Made by a program: the position numbers and the translations under genes. Shown here piece by piece: positions 38,870-63,833 of a DNA stretch of 64,000 bases. The stretch comes from Acidobacteriota bacterium (GTDB lineage Bacteria > Acidobacteriota > Terriglobia > UBA7540). Position 1 is the stretch's first letter. Each line of letters begins with the position of its first letter. The stretch is from contig SCRD01000007.1 of the NCBI GenBank assembly GCA_004298155.1, positions 1-64,000 of the forward strand. Reading direction: 5' to 3'. The notes below the pieces were generated by a model. It was not told where the DNA came from and ran no database searches. It was given only the letters and a program-made list of their open reading frames with translations.

Positions 38870-39568
38870 CTAGCTTTTCCTGCCTGCTCCGAACAATTCC
38901 GGGAATGTCTTGCGGTAGATGGACATGCCGAGCGCCGCGTTCATTCCCATTTCTTCAAGCGCGCGAATTTCGTCATCGGTTGTAATGCCGCCGGCGGCCG
39001 TGATGGGCAAGCTGGTGACGGCACGCAGCGATTGAAAATATTCGAGGTCGGTACCCTGCAGCTTTCCTTCCCCATCGATGTAGGTGCATAAAAATTCCGA
39101 GCAATAAGGCTCAAGCTGTGGAAGGACTTCGGCGGGCGCCAACGGAAGAGTTTCTTTCCAGCCGTGGATGGCCACGCGCTTGCCGAAACAATCGACACCG
39201 ATCATCAGCTTCTCTCGCGAAATGCGGCCGGAAAGCGCCCGGAGGAATTCCGTGTTGATTCCTTTGGAGGTGAACGCCGAACTGCCCACGATGATCTTGT
39301 GCGCCCCGTCCTGGTCAACCTGGAGGGCGCGCTCGACGCTGCGGATGCCGCCGCCCACTCGGCAGGGCTTGCGCCGGCACAACTCGCGAACGATGTCAGC
39401 TTGCGAATCGCGGCCCATGGCGCCATCGAGATCAATCACCTGAATTTGCGGATAGTCCTTAAATTTTTCAAGCACCGCAAAAGGGTCAGGCAGCTCGATG
39501 GCTTTGCTCTTGCCCTGAACGAGCTGGACTACCTTGCGGCCCATCAGATCGATGCACGGAATAATCAC
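38870..39568 (-). CDS. hisA: Phosphoribosyl-formimino-AICAR-phosphate isomerase (HisA)
   Basis: Fourth step of histidine synthesis, an Amadori rearrangement. The half-barrel repeat is visible as [19 protein letters not shown] with catalytic Asp8 and a phosphate loop VGGGIRSVE; the second catalytic Asp lies in [15 protein letters not shown] and the second phosphate loop in [11 protein letters not shown]. At 232 residues it is normal. It is the last gene of the his operon; its ATG overlaps the hisF stop by 4 bases. Confidence 0.93.
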
Positions 39569-40338
39569 AGGCGGACTGAGACTCCTTTGGAACGTAGAAA
39601 TTCCTTGAGGCTGCGGATGGTGTGCGTCCCGAAATGGAAAATGGACGCGGCCAGCGCGGCGTCCGCCGCTCCGTCAAGGAAGACGCCGGAAAAGTGCTCC
39701 AGGTTTCCAGCGCCACCAGAGGCGATCACTGGAATGGGAACGGCGCGGGCGATCGTGGCCGTCAGTTCGCAATCGAACCCCGCCTGCGTACCGTCCGCGT
39801 CCATGGAAGTCAGCAGGATTTCCCCCGCTCCTAACTCGTCCACGCGACGCGCCCACCAGAGTGCATCGACGCCCGTGTCCTTCGTGCCGCCGTAGGTTAC
39901 CACGTTCCAGCGCGCAGGTCCCTGCTCGCCACGGGGTCCCCTGCGGGCGTCAATGGCCACCACAATGGCTTGCCTCCCGAACTTCGCAGCGAGTTCACGC
40001 ACGATTTCAGGATTTTCAACCGCAGCCGTGTTGATGGCCACTTTGTCGGCGCCCACTGAAAGCAACCGGCGTGCGTCTTCAATGGTCCGAACACCCCCGC
40101 CCACGGTGAGCGGAATAAAGAGCCTTCGCGCAACGCGATTGACGGTGTCCATCAAGGTGGCGCGTCCTTCGCGTGAAGCCGAAATATCGAGCATCACCAG
40201 TTCATCAGCGCCCTCGGAGTTGTAAGCTGCCGCGAGATCGCCGGGATCGCCTGCATCGCGCAGGTTGACGAACTGCACTCCCTTAACGACCCGGCCGTCT
40301 TTGCAATCGAGGCACGGAATAATGCGTTTGGCAAACAT
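39565..40338 (-). CDS. hisF: Imidazole glycerol phosphate synthase cyclase subunit (HisF)
   Basis: Forms imidazole glycerol phosphate and AICAR with HisH. Signatures are [19 protein letters not shown] with catalytic Asp11, [43 protein letters not shown] with the second catalytic Asp, and [14 protein letters not shown]. Length 257 is typical. Its 3' end overlaps hisA by 4 bases; 65 bases separate it from hisH. Confidence 0.96.
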
Positions 40339-40403
40339 GAAACTCTTTCAATTGGAGAGAAGACTGCGGCTCCGTGTGGCAGGCCGCCCATTCTCATTCG
40401 GCC

Positions 40404-40997
40404 TTAGAACTTCAGAAAATTTTCCAGGACCTTCAATCCCACATCGCCGGACTTTTCTGGATGGAACTGGACGGCGTAAACCGTACCCACCTGGGCCGCG
40501 GCTGCAAAATTCTGTCCGTATTCGGTGACGACCGTCGTTTCCGTCGTGACGGGACCATAATACGAATGGCAAAAGTAAGCGAAACTGCCGTCGGGAACGG
40601 CTTTGAAAAGCCCATCCTGACGGCGGACCTGCAGTTGATTCCAGCCAAGGTGCGGAACCTTGAAGACCCCCTTAAACCTTGTCACGCAGCCCGGCAGCAA
40701 CCCAAAACCTGTTCGGCCCGGGGCCTCTTCGCTCGACTCATAAAGTGCCTGAAGGCCCAGGCAGATTCCCAGAAAGGGTTTTCCGCCGGCCATCTGCTCG
40801 CGCAGTGGAGCAATCATCTTTTTCGATTCCAACGCTTCCATCATCGCGCTGAAGTGTCCCTGGCCGGGCAGAATGAGCTGGTCGGCGGACTGCAACCGTC
40901 CAGGGTCCTCGACGGCTTCCGCCGGGAAACCGAGATACTGGACAGCCCGCAGCACCGAGCCGACGTTGCCCGCGCCGTAGTTGATCACGCCGATCAT
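40404..40997 (-). CDS. hisH: Imidazole glycerol phosphate synthase glutaminase subunit (HisH)
   Basis: Class I glutamine amidotransferase that supplies ammonia to HisF. The start is [18 protein letters not shown], the nucleophile Cys is in [15 protein letters not shown], and the His-Glu pair in [14 protein letters not shown]. Length 197 fits. Its ATG overlaps the hisB stop (ATGA), implying translational coupling. Confidence 0.96.
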
Positions 40998-41587
40998 AGA
41001 AGCCCTTTGGTTGACGGAAGCTGGTCCTTCAGCCGGGTGTCACGCGAGCACGCATAACGCAAGGCCCGCGCGAGGGCCTTGAACAGCGCCTCAATGCCAT
41101 GGTGGCTGGAGCGGCCATAAAAAATCTTGAGGTGCACGTTGGCTTTGGAGCTCGTCGCAAAGCCCTGGAAAAAATCCTCCAGAAGTTCTGATTGAAGATC
41201 GCCCACTCGCCGTGCGCGGATGGGTGCATTCAGCGCAAGGTAAGGCCGGCCACTCAAATCAACGGAAGCGAGCGCCAGCGTCTCGTCCATGGGCATCACA
41301 AAGTAGCCGGCGCGATTGATTCCTTTTTTGGTTCCCAGCGCCTTAAGCAGCGTTTCTCCCAGCGCAATGCCAACGTCTTCAACGGTGTGGTGCTGGTCAA
41401 CATCAAGGTCGCCCCGCGCTTTAAGATCGAGATCGAAGCCGCCGTGGCGCGCAAAAAGCTCCAGCATATGGTCGAGAAACCGGATGCCGGTGGAAACCGA
41501 GTATCGCCCGCGGCCGTCAAGGTCAAGCCGGATACGGATGTCGGTTTCCGTGGTCTTGCGATGGAGCGATGCCGTGCGGGCCTTCAT
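40994..41587 (-). CDS. hisB: Imidazoleglycerol-phosphate dehydratase (HisB)
   Basis: Dehydrates imidazole glycerol phosphate in histidine synthesis. The ATG at 41587 overlaps the hisC stop by 4 bases and gives 197 residues, the usual monofunctional size; the longer frame runs back into hisC. Metal-binding signatures are [34 protein letters not shown] and [15 protein letters not shown]. There is no fused histidinol phosphatase domain, so that enzyme (hisN or hisJ type) must be encoded elsewhere. Confidence 0.96.
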
Positions 41588-42696
41588 AAAGGCCGCCTTT
41601 TTGAAGACTTGCTCTGAGAACCGTTTCGTGTTTGTGTTTCCATCATGGGCCGGAACTCTGCGAGCCCCTGAATCAGCCGGCGCGTCTGTTCTGTTGAGCC
41701 GACGGTGAATCGCAGATAGCCCAGCAGGCGCGGATCGTAGCTCCAGTCGCGGATCAGGATGTCCTGGCCGCGCAGTTTCAGCGCGATTTCCGAAGCCTTC
41801 GAGCCGACACGCGCCAGAACGAAATTTGACGAACTCGGGACGTAAGGAATGCCAATCCTGTCGAGAAAACCGCAGAGCTTGTCGCGGTTGCTGCAAACCT
41901 GCCGGGCATAGCGGGCGACGAATCGGTCATGCTTGATGGCTTCCAGCGCGCAGGCCAGAGCCAGGGAATTCACCGCAAACGGGTTCTGCGCGCGACGCAT
42001 GGGCTCAGCGATCCGGGCGTTGGTCAGGATGCATCCCAGGCGCAGCGCGGCCAGGCCGAAGGCTTTTGAAAACGTCCGCGTCACCACAAGATTGGGATAC
42101 TTTCTGATCCACGGCAGGACCGTTTGGCCCGAAAAGTCGACATAAGCTTCGTCCACCAGGACCAGCACATCGGGAGCTTCACGCAGAATCGTGCGCAAGT
42201 CGCGCTGCGAAACCACAGTGGCGGTGGGGTTGTTGGGATTGGCTATGGCCATCCAGCGTGTGCGCTTGTTGACGGCAGCAAGCAGCATGCGCGCCGTCAG
42301 GCGGAATTTTCCGTCATACCGGACGCGCGTGGTGCGTCCTCCGGCGACGGTGTGGAAGAACTCATAGACGGGAAAAGTGGGCGCAGGAACAATCAACTCA
42401 TCGCCCGGACCCACGAATGTGTCGCAGACCATCTTGATGGCATCGTCCGTGCCGTTGGCCAGGAGCAGCTCGTCGGCTGCCACACCAAAGTAGCGGGCGA
42501 GTTTTTCACGCGCCTCTTCGTATTCGGGATAGCGTGAGAGCCAGTCACCGTTCAGTTTGCTGCGCAGAGCGCGGACCACCTGCGGCGCGCAGCCCACCGT
42601 GTTTTCATTGAAGTCGAGCCGGAGCTTCCCGCCGCGCCCCTCGCGTGGAGGGCGATAAGCCTTCAGGCGCTCAACGGCCCTTCGGGGTCGAACCAT
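41584..42696 (-). CDS. hisC: Histidinol-phosphate aminotransferase (HisC)
   Basis: PLP-dependent transaminase making histidinol phosphate. Residues [14 protein letters not shown] are the substrate-binding start, [15 protein letters not shown] follows, then [31 protein letters not shown] with the PLP Asp/Tyr, and the Schiff-base Lys in [18 protein letters not shown]. Length 370 is typical of class II enzymes of this type. The gene overlaps hisD by 26 bases and hisB by 4. Confidence 0.95.
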
Positions 42697-43969
42697 GGAC
42701 CTTAAACCTCGTTTCGATGGAATAGGCGTGCGCTTTCAGGCCCTCAGTGCGGGCCAGCGTGGTGATGGTCTTTCGAATACGCGCAAGCCCCTGCGGAGTG
42801 AGTTTCTGTACGGAAATCGTCTTGACGAAATCGGCTGTGCTCAACCCTCCGCGCAGACGCGCCGCCCCGGCGGTGGGCAGGATGTGATTGGTCCCGGAGG
42901 CGTAGTCGCCCGCCGCAACGGGGCTGGTTTCGCCGAGAAAGATGGACCCAGCCGAGCGCACGCGATCGAGCATCCGGCTTGCGGCGCCGAGCAGCGAGAG
43001 GTGCTCGGGAGCAAAGGCATTCACCAGATCGATGGCTTCTTCCAGGGTCTTCGTTACCACCACGGCTCCATGCCCGTTCAGCGCTTTTGTTGGAACTCCG
43101 CCCTCCCTGGCGAAAACCTCTTCCAGTATCCTTTCCACGGCGCCCTGGACTTCAAGCGCCAGCTTGCGCGATGGAGTCAGGAAAATGGCCACCGCGTCCG
43201 GATCGTGTTCGGCCTGCGCCACCAGGTCGGAAGCGATCCACCTGGCGTTGCCCTCGGACGCAACCACCATCAGTTCCGAGGGACCTGCAACAAAATCGAT
43301 CCCGCAGTCACCGGCCACCAGCTTCTTGGCGGCGGCGACGTAGCGGTTGCCGGGCCCCACGATCTTGTCCGCGCGTGGAATACTTTCCGTGCCATAGGCG
43401 AAGGCGCCAATGGCCTGCGCTCCGCCGAGGCGAAAAATCTTCTTGATGCCCAGAATGTCGGCTGCAACCAGCACGGCGGGAGCGGGGCGCGGGGAAGTGA
43501 TGAAAATCTCGCCTACGCCCGCGACCTGTGCCGGAATCACGCTCATCAGCACGGTCGAGGGAAGCGGAAAACGGCCGCCGGGCACATAGCAGGCAACGCG
43601 GCCGAGAGGGCGCACAATCTGGCTGACCTTAATGCCGGGGCCGTTGCTGATTTGCCAGGAGCGCGGCAACTGCTCGCGAGCGGCCTTGCGAATGTTGCGG
43701 GCGGAAGTTTGTACCGCGTCCGCAAAGCCTTCGGGAACCTGCCGGTAGGCCTTAACGACTTCCCGCCGCTTGACGGCAAACCCTTCCCGGGCAAGATCGA
43801 CCTTATCCAGTTGCAGGGTCCAGCGTTTGAGCGCGCGGTCGCCCTCGCGGCGGACATCGCTCAGGATGCGCCGGGCGGCGGCTTCAGCTTTCTTAAGCTG
43901 GGTCTCGCCGGAACGGAGAATTTGCTTGACGCTCTTGACGTCTGTACTGCGGAAGATTGGAATCATCAC
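42671..43969 (-). CDS. hisD: Histidinol dehydrogenase (HisD)
   Basis: Zinc enzyme that oxidises histidinol to histidine in two NAD-dependent steps. Signatures are RPLGRVACYVPGGRFPLPST, GGAQAIGAFAYGTESIPRADKIVGPGN (substrate and NAD regions), DFVAGPSELMVVA, LVAQAEHDPDA and NAFAPEHLSLL with the catalytic Glu-His. The C-terminus has GTNHILPTAGAARLRGGLST. Length 432 is typical. Two adjacent ATGs give start options one codon apart. Confidence 0.96.
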   Translation of the reverse strand: MMIPIFRSTDVKSVKQILRSGETQLKKAEAAARRILSDVRREGDRALKRWTLQLDKVDLAREGFAVKRREVVKAYRQVPEGFADAVQTSARNIRKAAREQLPRSWQISNGPGIKVSQIVRPLGRVACYVPGGRFPLPSTVLMSVIPAQVAGVGEIFITSPRPAPAVLVAADILGIKKIFRLGGAQAIGAFAYGTESIPRADKIVGPGNRYVAAAKKLVAGDCGIDFVAGPSELMVVASEGNARWIASDLVAQAEHDPDAVAIFLTPSRKLALEVQGAVERILEEVFAREGGVPTKALNGHGAVVVTKTLEEAIDLVNAFAPEHLSLLGAASRMLDRVRSAGSIFLGETSPVAAGDYASGTNHILPTAGAARLRGGLSTADFVKTISVQKLTPQGLARIRKTITTLARTEGLKAHAYSIETRFKVHGSTPKGR

Positions 43970-44026: not shown

Positions 44027-44614
44027 TCATCTCAGCGCCGCGAAGCTCCGGCAGTCCGCGCTCCAGGGTGTGGCGGCGGAAATGGCCTGAGGCACTTCTT
44101 CAGGCTCACCCACAACGCTCCACATGCGGGCGTGCCGGGTATCCATGAAGCGCTCGCCGATGCACTGGTCGAGAAGCCGGATAAGCGGCTGGTAAAATGA
44201 TTGAGTGTTCAGGATGACGATGGCCCCCAGATAAAGGCCCAGCCGTTTCCAGGTGATCGCCTCCATCAGTTCTTCCAGCGTGCCGCATCCACCAGGAAGG
44301 GCGATAACGGCGTCCACGCCATCGATCATCTGTTTCTTGCGCTCGTGCATGTCGTTGACGACAATGGTTTCAGGCAGCTGCGGGTCCATCCATTCCAGCT
44401 CAACCATGAATTCCGGAATCACGCCCACCAGGCGCCCGCCTTCGGCCACTACGCCGTCGGCGAGGCTCTTCATCGAGCCGGCAGCGCCGCCGCCATAGAC
44501 CACCGTAAAATTGTTCCGGGCAAGCACACGGCCGAGCCGCTCGGCAGCTTTCAGGTAGGTGGAGTCGCACTGGCGGCTTGATCCGCAGTAAACGCAGGCT
44601 TTCCGGTTTTCCAT
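44027..44614 (-). CDS. LOG-family (TIGR00730-type) Rossmann protein inside the his operon
   Basis: Protein of 195 residues of the lysine-decarboxylase-like/LOG family, members of which hydrolyse nucleoside monophosphates (cytokinin riboside phosphates or AMP) to base and ribose-5-phosphate. The start is MENRKACVYCGSSRQCDSTY; the nucleotide and catalytic motif is LPGGCGTLEELMEAITW, and VYGGGAAGSMKSLADGV is the other conserved loop. The ATG at 44614 is chosen for homology; the longer frame adds a non-conserved leader. Placed between hisG and hisD with gaps under 60 bases, so it is co-transcribed with histidine genes. A role in AMP or phosphoribosyl recycling linked to the pathway is a guess. 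Confidence 0.88.
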   Translation of the reverse strand: MENRKACVYCGSSRQCDSTYLKAAERLGRVLARNNFTVVYGGGAAGSMKSLADGVVAEGGRLVGVIPEFMVELEWMDPQLPETIVVNDMHERKKQMIDGVDAVIALPGGCGTLEELMEAITWKRLGLYLGAIVILNTQSFYQPLIRLLDQCIGERFMDTRHARMWSVVGEPEEVPQAISAATPWSADCRSFAALR

Positions 44615-44658
44615 AAGGCATCTCTCTTGGCACGGACGTCGAGTCGGCGCGCGCAACT

Positions 44659-45537
44659 CTAGAAGATAATTTTGCTTAAAGGATATTCCACAATCCCTTG
44701 CGCGTTCGCGGCCTTGAGCCGTGGAATGATTTCCCGCGCGGTCTTATCTTCAATTACGGTGTTGACCGCCACCCAATCCGAATCGCTAAGGTCTGAGATA
44801 GTCGGCCGCTTAAGGGCCGGCAGCACGTCGAGCACGGCTTTCAGGTCCGCGCGTTTCACGTTCAGCATCAGCCCTACCTTGCCGGCCGCGTCGATGGCAC
44901 CTCTCAGCAGCATGACCAATGTCTCGATTTTCCGCCGCTTCCAGGCGTCATTCCAGGCGGCCTTGTTCACGATGAATTTGGTGTTCGATTCGAGGAGGGT
45001 CTCAACAATCCGCAGGCCGTTGGCGCGCAGCGAGGAGCCGGTTTCCGTCACCTCAACAATGGCGTCGGCGAGCACAGGCGGCTTCACTTCCGTCGCTCCC
45101 CAGGAGAATTCCACCTTGGCATTCACGCCGTTTTTCGCCAGGTAACGCTTCGTCACATTCACCAGTTCCGTGGCCACGGTTTTTCCTTCCAGATCTTTGA
45201 CGCCCCGGATATCAGAATTCTCCGGCACGGCCAGCACCCATCGGACTTTCCCAAAGGTGTTCTTTGCATAGATCAGGTCGGCCACTTCCACCACGCCGGT
45301 GCCGTCTTCGTTATTCTCCAGGATCCAGTCCCGGCCGGTCATGCCGGCGTCCAGAACGCCGTCTTCCACGTAGCGGGCCATTTCCTGGGCGCGAATCAGC
45401 ATGCACTCCATTTCGCTGTCGTCAATCACCGGGAAATAGGACCTCGAGCCGACGGTAATCTCATAGCCCGCGCGCCTGAACAGTTGAAGCGATGCCTCCT
45501 GAAGGCTGCCCTTGGGGATTCCCAGTTTCAAACTCAT
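44659..45537 (-). CDS. hisG: ATP phosphoribosyltransferase, long form (HisG)
   Basis: First and committed step of histidine synthesis: joins ATP and PRPP. At 292 residues it is the long form, with two periplasmic-binding-like catalytic domains ([28 protein letters not shown], phosphate loop [15 protein letters not shown]) and a C-terminal ACT-like regulatory domain ([20 protein letters not shown]) that binds histidine for feedback inhibition. No hisZ is needed for this form. Its ATG overlaps the hisI stop by 4 bases. Confidence 0.96.
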
Positions 45538-45923
45538 GCTTTCGTCTCCTGTTTCGAACTGCCATAAATCTGCTCGGGATTAAATTCCTGCCGGGCGATC
45601 ACTTCTTCGCCCTCAGGCGTCACCTTGCGGAAAAAGCACGACCGGTAACCCATGTGGCAACACCCGGGTCCCGCCAGTTCCGCGCGTACGAGCAGCGCAT
45701 CTTTGTCGCAATCCACCCGCACCTCGCGGACCTTCAGCTTGTGGCCGGAGGTTTCACCCTTGGTCCAGAGTTTCTGCCGGCTGCGGCTGTAGAAGGTGAC
45801 GAAGCCAGTGCTCAACGTCGTCTGGTAAGCCTGGTCGTTCATATAGCCCAGCATCAGGACGTCGCCGGTCTCCGAGTCCTGGACGATGGCTGGGATAAGA
45901 TTGTCCTGGAATTTCAAGTCCAT
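45534..45923 (-). CDS. hisI: Phosphoribosyl-AMP cyclohydrolase (HisI)
   Basis: Opens the purine ring of phosphoribosyl-AMP. The protein (129 residues) has [38 protein letters not shown] and the metal ligands in [20 protein letters not shown] with HMGYRSCF. There is no fused HisE domain and no hisE gene nearby, so the phosphoribosyl-ATP pyrophosphohydrolase must lie elsewhere. It is the first structural gene of the operon, 22 bases after the T-tract of the leader terminator. Confidence 0.95.
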
Positions 45924-45944: not shown

Positions 45945-45982
45945 AAAAATAAAAAAACCCGCTAACTCTACTTGTCAGCGGG
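45945..45982 (-). terminator. his operon attenuator terminator
   Basis: Read on the minus strand, CCCGCTGAC (45974-45982) pairs with GTTAGCGGG (45958-45966) over 9 positions with one G-U pair and a 7-base loop, followed by TTTTTTTATTTTT (45945-45957). This is a textbook intrinsic terminator located between the leader peptide and hisI. Confidence 0.92.
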
Positions 45983-46012
45983 CCCTAACTTGATTCCGAT
46001 CCTGATTCTCGA

Positions 46013-46084
46013 TTAGGCCAGCACCCACTGACACCACACCTCGTGGTTTGTATGGTGATGGTGATGTGCCAGCGCGTACCGCAT
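46013..46084 (-). CDS. hisL: his operon leader peptide, histidine-rich (23 aa)
   Basis: A 23-codon frame, ATG at 46082-46084, stop TAA at 46013-46015, preceded by TAAGGAG 3-4 bases upstream. The peptide starts MRYALA, continues with five consecutive His codons (codons 7-11, 46052-46066) and has another His at codon 14; it also contains two Trp and one Cys. A run of the pathway's own amino acid in a short peptide directly before a terminator is the hallmark of ribosome-mediated attenuation. The peptide itself is expected to have no function other than ribosome stalling when histidyl-tRNA is scarce. Confidence 0.93.
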   Translation of the reverse strand: MRYALAHHHHHTNHEVWCQWVLA

Positions 46085-46218
46085 AGACTCCTTACGTTAG
46101 ACTACGGCATCTGATTTGTCAATAAGCGCAAAGCTTTTTCCAATCGCGTTCGAGAAATAAATGGTACAGCCTTGCGGTGTAATATACTATTGAAACACGG
46201 CAGCGAGGGCGAAGAGCG

Positions 46219-63644: not shown

Positions 63645-63813
63645 AACGTCGCTGTGAATTGGTACCGACGGATAATGTTTTCTAGTCCTCGGCTGGCGCA
63701 TCCATCGCACATCATGCATTGGGTGCAGACATTGAATGTCCTGGAAGGCGGGGCAGAAGTTGCCGCCACAAAGGCATGCGACCGGCCAGCTCCGGAGGAG
63801 CGGCAGAATTTAG

Positions 63814-63833
63814 CCCACGGCGCAAGCCGTGGG
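63814..63833. repeat. REP-like hairpin with GCAA loop
   Basis: CCCACGGC-GCAA-GCCGTGGG, a perfect 8-bp stem with a GNRA-type loop, near 63800-63840. The flanking AGCTCCGGAGGAGC is itself nearly palindromic. Confidence 0.65.

Follow-up and report, generated by a model that had tools for sequence, protein, structure and literature searches.

The operon that runs from hisI to hisA in the window (the whole 64,000-nt stretch of acidobacterial DNA analysed here) is very probably controlled by a histidine-responsive, ribosome-mediated transcription attenuator. An earlier reading of the sequence alone had proposed a complete attenuator of this type, and this main interpretation is supported by the anatomy of the leader, its conservation among relatives, the complementarity of its pairing segments, and its geometry. 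As predicted from its sequence, the element is a histidine attenuator of known logic, but in a variant distinct from the Rfam families and in a phylum where such sensors have hardly been described.

Anatomy and predicted start of the his leader

The leader, its terminator, and the his genes all lie on the minus strand, and all coordinates are positions in the window. The leader is composed of the following features.

46117..46122, minus strand: -35 hexamer of the predicted promoter, an exact TTGACA, shared by 26/29 family loci with a scorable promoter region
46094..46099, minus strand: predicted -10 hexamer TAACGT, separated from the -35 hexamer by a 17-nt spacer and ending 9 nt before the leader ATG
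46013..46084, minus strand: leader peptide ORF of 23 aa, MRYALAHHHHHTNHEVWCQWVLA*, identified by sequence, with a counterpart in 30/30 nearest and 58/60 further class loci
46043..46066, minus strand: putative regulatory His codons (codons 7-11 and 14), supported by the sequence and a shuffle null test
46066..46074, minus strand: segment 1 (CGCTGGCAC), which mimics segment 3 and is predicted to pair with segment 2 in the 1:2 hairpin (folds, pair counts, and matched-versus-permuted test)
46023..46033, minus strand: segment 2 (TGTCAGTGGGT), within the 3' end of the leader ORF, predicted to pair with segment 1 or segment 3
45973..45983, minus strand: segment 3 (GCCCGCTGACA), 5' arm of the terminator and predicted antiterminator partner of segment 2
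45957..45966, minus strand: segment 4 (GTTAGCGGGT), 3' arm of the terminator
45945..45957, minus strand: T-tract TTTTTTTATTTTT of the intrinsic terminator (sequence and terminator scan)

The leader frame can be read directly on the minus strand from 46084 to 46013 (ATG CGG TAC GCG CTG GCA CAT CAC CAT CAC CAT ACA AAC CAC ... TAA) and, as had been claimed, it includes five tandem His codons (46066..46052) plus one more (46045..46043). Thus, a short ORF with tandem His codons stands before the first his gene. Among 20,000 first-order Markov shuffles of the 420 nt upstream of hisI, none produced a short ORF with five His in eight codons (observed, six; shuffle maximum, four) and the His run is therefore beyond chance. 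Segment 1 can also be delimited as CGCTGGCACA, which sits immediately 5' of the His run and extends into it. It is a near copy of segment 3, making segments 1 and 3 rivals for segment 2. Further downstream, GTCAGTGGG is located at 46032..46024 inside the leader ORF, CCCGCTGAC at 45982..45974, and GTTAGCGGG at 45966..45958. Pair counting gives the terminator stem as GCCCGCTGAC / GTTAGCGGGT, while the terminator scan assigns it 13 pairs. The intrinsic terminator and T-tract reported just upstream of hisI were confirmed; the T-tract ends (45945) 21 nt before the hisI ATG (45923). A HicB-like antitoxin gene (PF15919; 46219-46440, plus strand) is found directly upstream of the his promoter in divergent orientation.

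The order of elements on the minus strand is TTGACA-17 nt-TAACGT-AAGGAGTCT-ATG, and the predicted -10 position places the transcript start approximately 1-5 nt 5' of the leader AUG. The leader mRNA is probably leaderless or nearly so, based upon the -10 spacing, the lack of Shine-Dalgarno (SD) pairing, and the behavior of the TAAGGAG sequence in front of the start codon. The distance from the end of the -10 hexamer to the start codon is 8-14 nt in 28/29 scorable family loci, with the single exception (L024) scoring poorly. Class-wide, a -10-like hexamer occurs 7-15 nt before the start in 54/86 loci, compared to 5 and 7 in two control intervals. The sequence-only reading had interpreted TAAGGAG as a ribosome site and, because AGGAG is indeed just upstream of the ATG in the window, the leader could conceivably be translated from a conventional SD site on a longer 5' UTR, which would compete only with the leaderless part of our interpretation. 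We consider this unlikely. TAAGGAG spans 46094..46088 and shares its first T with the 3' end of the predicted -10 hexamer (46099..46094), so it is probably not transcribed at all; nor is it conserved, as a relative from the same genus has AAGTTCT at that place. An SD-like match was present in only 3/29 scored loci, and the class-wide mean anti-SD energy before the leader is just -0.19 kcal/mol, versus -6.25 before hisI and -1.49 in shuffled sequence. Together with the position of the -10 box, these values argue for initiation at or near the RNA 5' end.

Competing RNA segments and the proposed switch

The full window leader folds as the 1:2 hairpin followed by the terminator (-58.3 kcal/mol, z=-2.85), whereas removal of its 5' part leads segment 2 to pair with segment 3 at the expense of the terminator (-29.8, z=-2.45). 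The predicted exchange of terminator and antiterminator was thus seen upon folding with and without the leader 5' part. Single-sequence z-scores of only about -2.5 to -2.9 might by themselves suggest that the His run and terminator are a chance coincidence, but the probability of this is vanishingly small, as none of the 20,000 shuffles contained such a run and conservation in dozens of genera already refutes it. In an alignment of the nearest loci, the 1:2 and 3:4 pairs were formed in 90.1% of alignment cells with a covariation score exceeding all 500 shuffles, while the 2:3 pairs were formed in 97% of cells, yet are almost invariant within the family.

Equilibrium folding was dropped as a proof of antitermination, since the terminator remains the favored fold of the full-length RNA in 64/86 loci even where segment 2 is left free, from which it follows that the switch must be kinetic. 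It was replaced by folds ending before segment 4 and by a matched-versus-permuted pairing test, in which the duplex energy of each leader's 3' part with its own terminator arm is compared to that with the arms of other loci. Among the 88 class loci, segment 2 paired with its own segment 3 at -19.8 kcal/mol, versus -17.5 after permutation and -18.5 after permutation within families (p<5e-5 for both). Segments 1 and 2 gave the same outcome in 86 loci (-18.7 for own pairs, versus -15.3 overall and -17.4 within families). By comparison, the antiterminator pair count is only weakly specific, as 55% of shuffled spacers reach 8 or more pairs, and the real spacer surpassed all 20 of its own shuffles in duplex energy in only 39/86 loci (means of -20.8 versus -14.5). 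Because GC-rich spacers often pair with segment 3 by chance, raw pair counts are not evidence and the permutation test carries the weight. Within these limits of pair-count specificity, the antiterminator pairing is mutually exclusive with the terminator and has covariation support. A leader segment able to pair with a terminator arm had been part of the original proposal, and this 2:3 alternative fold was both found in the window and conserved across the class.

The spacing of these elements matches what stalling and read-through would demand. This spacing is constant across the class: the median distance from the first His codon to the start of segment 2 is 32 nt, segment 2 stops 6 nt short of the last base of the stop codon, and the terminator begins 25 nt past the leader stop. 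Accordingly, a ribosome positioned on the His codons leaves segment 2 free and one at the stop codon covers it. When a stalled ribosome was masked at the second His codon before segment 4 was made, segment 3 paired upstream in 86/86 class loci; with the ribosome masked at the stop codon, the terminator formed in 86/86. The distances judged suitable in the sequence-only reading therefore yield the expected structure each way.

A different outcome of the same stalling event would be attenuation of translation, with the hisI ribosome site hidden, or attenuation via Rho, instead of via the intrinsic terminator. A precedent comes from mycobacterial leaderless poly-Cys ORFs, which PMC13236596 reports as translation attenuators. 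For the his leader, we judge such a mechanism very unlikely, because 86/88 class loci having a leader carry an intrinsic terminator complete with T-tract, and because the hisI start is far downstream in several loci, with up to 240 nt between the leader stop and hisI.

The following model of transcription attenuation is consistent with these results. The leader ORF would be translated as the RNA emerges, most likely in leaderless fashion, with its AUG at or a few nt from the 5' end. Under conditions in which charged His-tRNA is scarce, the ribosome would stall on the His codons and cover segment 1, which should leave segment 2 available for segment 3 ahead of the synthesis of segment 4. Terminator formation would then come too late and the operon would be transcribed. 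Conversely, with charged His-tRNA available, the ribosome would proceed to the stop codon and cover segment 2, such that the intrinsic terminator could form from segments 3 and 4, which begin ~25 nt past the stop, and end transcription 21 nt before hisI. We infer four parts of this model from sequence: ribosome stalling, the dependence on His-tRNA, termination itself, and the leaderless state of the 5' end.

Distribution of the leader and its operon

We examined conservation using the 30 closest hisI loci, chosen by HisI similarity only, of which 29 (the window included) belong to the window's own family f1 and one to a sister family (f2). Family f1 also takes in genomes of Acidobacteria subdivision 13 (L137, L134). 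A leader of 19-25 aa laid out in the same way is present in all 30 loci, together with a terminator and the conserved segment 2/3 motif. The His codons vary between CAT and CAC among relatives, and a few leaders swap some His for Arg, Tyr, or Ser. In the leaders of L024, L025, and L005, Arg stands in place of many His (e.g. MRGSLIYRHRRLSHQAQCQRAPLAS) and only 2-3 His are left. A covariance model of the leader matches 114/200 class genomes, and all 40 of the fetched matches from outside the family sit just upstream of hisI. A His-rich leader is nonetheless present in 18 of 20 class loci missed by the model, and 16 of these 18 have a clear terminator. Both the His run and the segment pairing are thus kept in related genomes, where a lack of conservation would have contradicted the proposal.

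Candidate his leaders are also widely distributed in the phylum. In a separate sample of named genomes, most Acidobacteriota loci have 3-7 His per 8 codons (mostly 4-7), while approximately 40 non-acidobacterial hisI loci had no His leader, with at most 2 His per 8 codons. Outside the class, about a dozen families have a similar leader in front of hisI or hisG. With terminators judged by eye only, they were found before hisI in f27, f36, f45, f56, f58, and f70 and before hisG in f17, f29, f30, f35, and f38, as well as before hisG in f33 and f39, where no clear terminator was evident. Within the class, families f4, f8, f9, and f13 had no leader before hisI nor, where seen, before hisG; in most of them, HisG is short and hisI has another position in the operon. 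No leader was found in the stretches read from other-class families including f21, f32, f40, f44, f61, f65, f66, f67, f72, and f76. The suggestion that attenuation of this kind could extend to the phylum is therefore borne out by related leaders in much of Acidobacteriota, with near-universal presence in the window's family. Across the class and phylum loci, a his leader tends to accompany long-form HisG together with hisI or hisG as the first gene, and families with short HisG mostly have none.

Poly-His peptides bind metals. It is conceivable, then, that the ORF encodes a short peptide with its own function (e.g. metal binding) followed by an ordinary terminator, with hisI expressed from another promoter, and the predicted promoter and terminator of the ORF would suit such a unit. 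We find this highly improbable, as the rest of the peptide, apart from the His run, varies freely from family to family but the RNA segments and their spacing are kept, and the element stays before the first his gene even where that gene is hisG. In addition, other biosynthetic genes are preceded by sister elements whose leaders specify different amino acids, and only 21 nt separate the terminator from hisI in the window.

The genes downstream of the leader, identified by NCBIfam, are arranged in the order hisI-G-(LOG)-D-C-B-H-F-A.

45534..45923, minus strand: hisI (phosphoribosyl-AMP cyclohydrolase), first gene of the operon (NF000768, 150 bits)
44659..45537, minus strand: hisG, long form (TIGR00070 and TIGR03455)
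44027..44656, minus strand: LOG-family gene between hisG and hisD (TIGR00730)
38870..43969, minus strand: hisD, hisC, hisB, hisH, hisF, and hisA (NCBIfam)

The nine-gene operon with a LOG gene described previously is therefore correct for the window, but the LOG gene occurs in only 6/30 nearest loci and so does not generally belong to the regulated unit. From this distribution, it is an apparent clade-specific insertion.

Known attenuators and sister leaders

The acidobacterial element resembles the enteric his leader (RF00514, hisL of E. coli/Salmonella), which has seven consecutive His codons (PMC3896937), in its His-codon run, competing RNA segments, and terminator before the first his gene. 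Competition among three segments is likewise seen in the enteric trp attenuator. Unlike hisL, the first gene is hisI rather than hisG, the conserved segments are TGTCAGYGGGC/GCCCGCTGACA with segment 1 copying segment 3, and there is probably no 5' UTR or SD. RF00514 was not matched at its gathering score in the window or 16 his relatives, and was not reported for the window even at E<=10. No Rfam 15 family reached its gathering threshold for the leader, and the T-box (RF00230) gave no covariance-model match to the window leader. The best of a few weak cmscan similarities was to the trpB motif (RF04312), which scored 25 bits against a cut-off of 59. This motif similarly consists of a hairpin followed by a terminator, with the antiterminator strand inside the first hairpin (PMC11109978), but the his leader falls far below its threshold and the motif was described in Firmicutes and Fusobacteria (PMC11109978). 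An Acido-Lenti-1 RNA (RF01687, 53.8 bits) is found elsewhere in the window (63788-63833, minus strand).

Histidine attenuators are known from Proteobacteria, and candidates have been proposed in some Firmicutes, where comparative genomics identified a His-rich leader and terminator/antiterminator in 17 species (PMC9413887). Unlike those candidates, the present leader occurs almost universally in the window's family and is widespread in Acidobacteriota. A peptide predicted to be translated from the RNA 5' end without an SD is comparable to the leaderless trpL leader peptide of Sinorhizobium meliloti (PMC7298713) and to the mycobacterial leaderless poly-Cys ORFs (Canestrari 2020, as cited in PMC13236596). 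Those leaders use Trp or Cys, whereas the acidobacterial leader uses His, and the mycobacterial case is described as translation attenuation; the leaderless state of the his leader is predicted from promoter spacing. For the attenuators predicted in Acidobacteria, almost no function emerged from a 2010 survey (PMC2965389). We found no description of an acidobacterial his leader in the accessible literature, although a prior prediction is possible, e.g. by Lopatovskaya 2010 (PubMed 20198868). The present analysis gives one such predicted attenuator a named function, an anatomy, and a wide distribution in one of the most abundant soil phyla. With its likely leaderless design, it offers a way to test ribosome loading and RNA polymerase coupling in attenuation where no SD is involved.

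The his covariance model also matches three further places in the same genome, each with a terminator and an alternative pairing. The first is an aromatic leader (MVSSNFAYAFSFSYWYWGFFASIR) with a terminator before DAHP synthase (L032:1487-1655; G000:C17:130691-130830), and Phe/Tyr/Trp-rich leaders occur in ~24/30 DAHP synthase loci (f1, f5, f6), many with a nearby -10 box. The second is a Cys leader containing MCCCTCTVRGRRAAGD with a terminator before ATP sulfurylase (L033:1461-1697; G000:C16:50905-51033), which recurs in the nearest genera only. The third, also a Cys leader (MGKRLHSADGMCCCTSAPACGG) with a terminator, precedes nitrite/sulfite reductase (L034, minus strand; G000:C6:116145-116275). 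The Cys-run leaders suggest cysteine attenuation of sulfur assimilation. We lean toward the broader view that Acidobacteriota possess a general repertoire of leader-peptide attenuators of the leaderless type (His, aromatic, and Cys) as a principal form of amino-acid control, in which the his version would be ancestral in much of the phylum and SD-free initiation at the RNA 5' end would be the normal form of translation-transcription coupling in the attenuators of this lineage. The his leader points to more amino-acid sensors in the same genomes and may help to predict regulation in organisms that are hard to grow. Among other class genomes, we also noted a Cys leader (MCCCMPSAGGVLSSGNRDS) before a TauE/SafE sulfite exporter (L254), a Cys leader (MCMCSCTCRATSGRGGPSV) before an ATP-grasp gene (L267), and a Phe-rich leader (MTSSMHRTGFSFAFRFFTGGAG) before prephenate dehydratase (L257).
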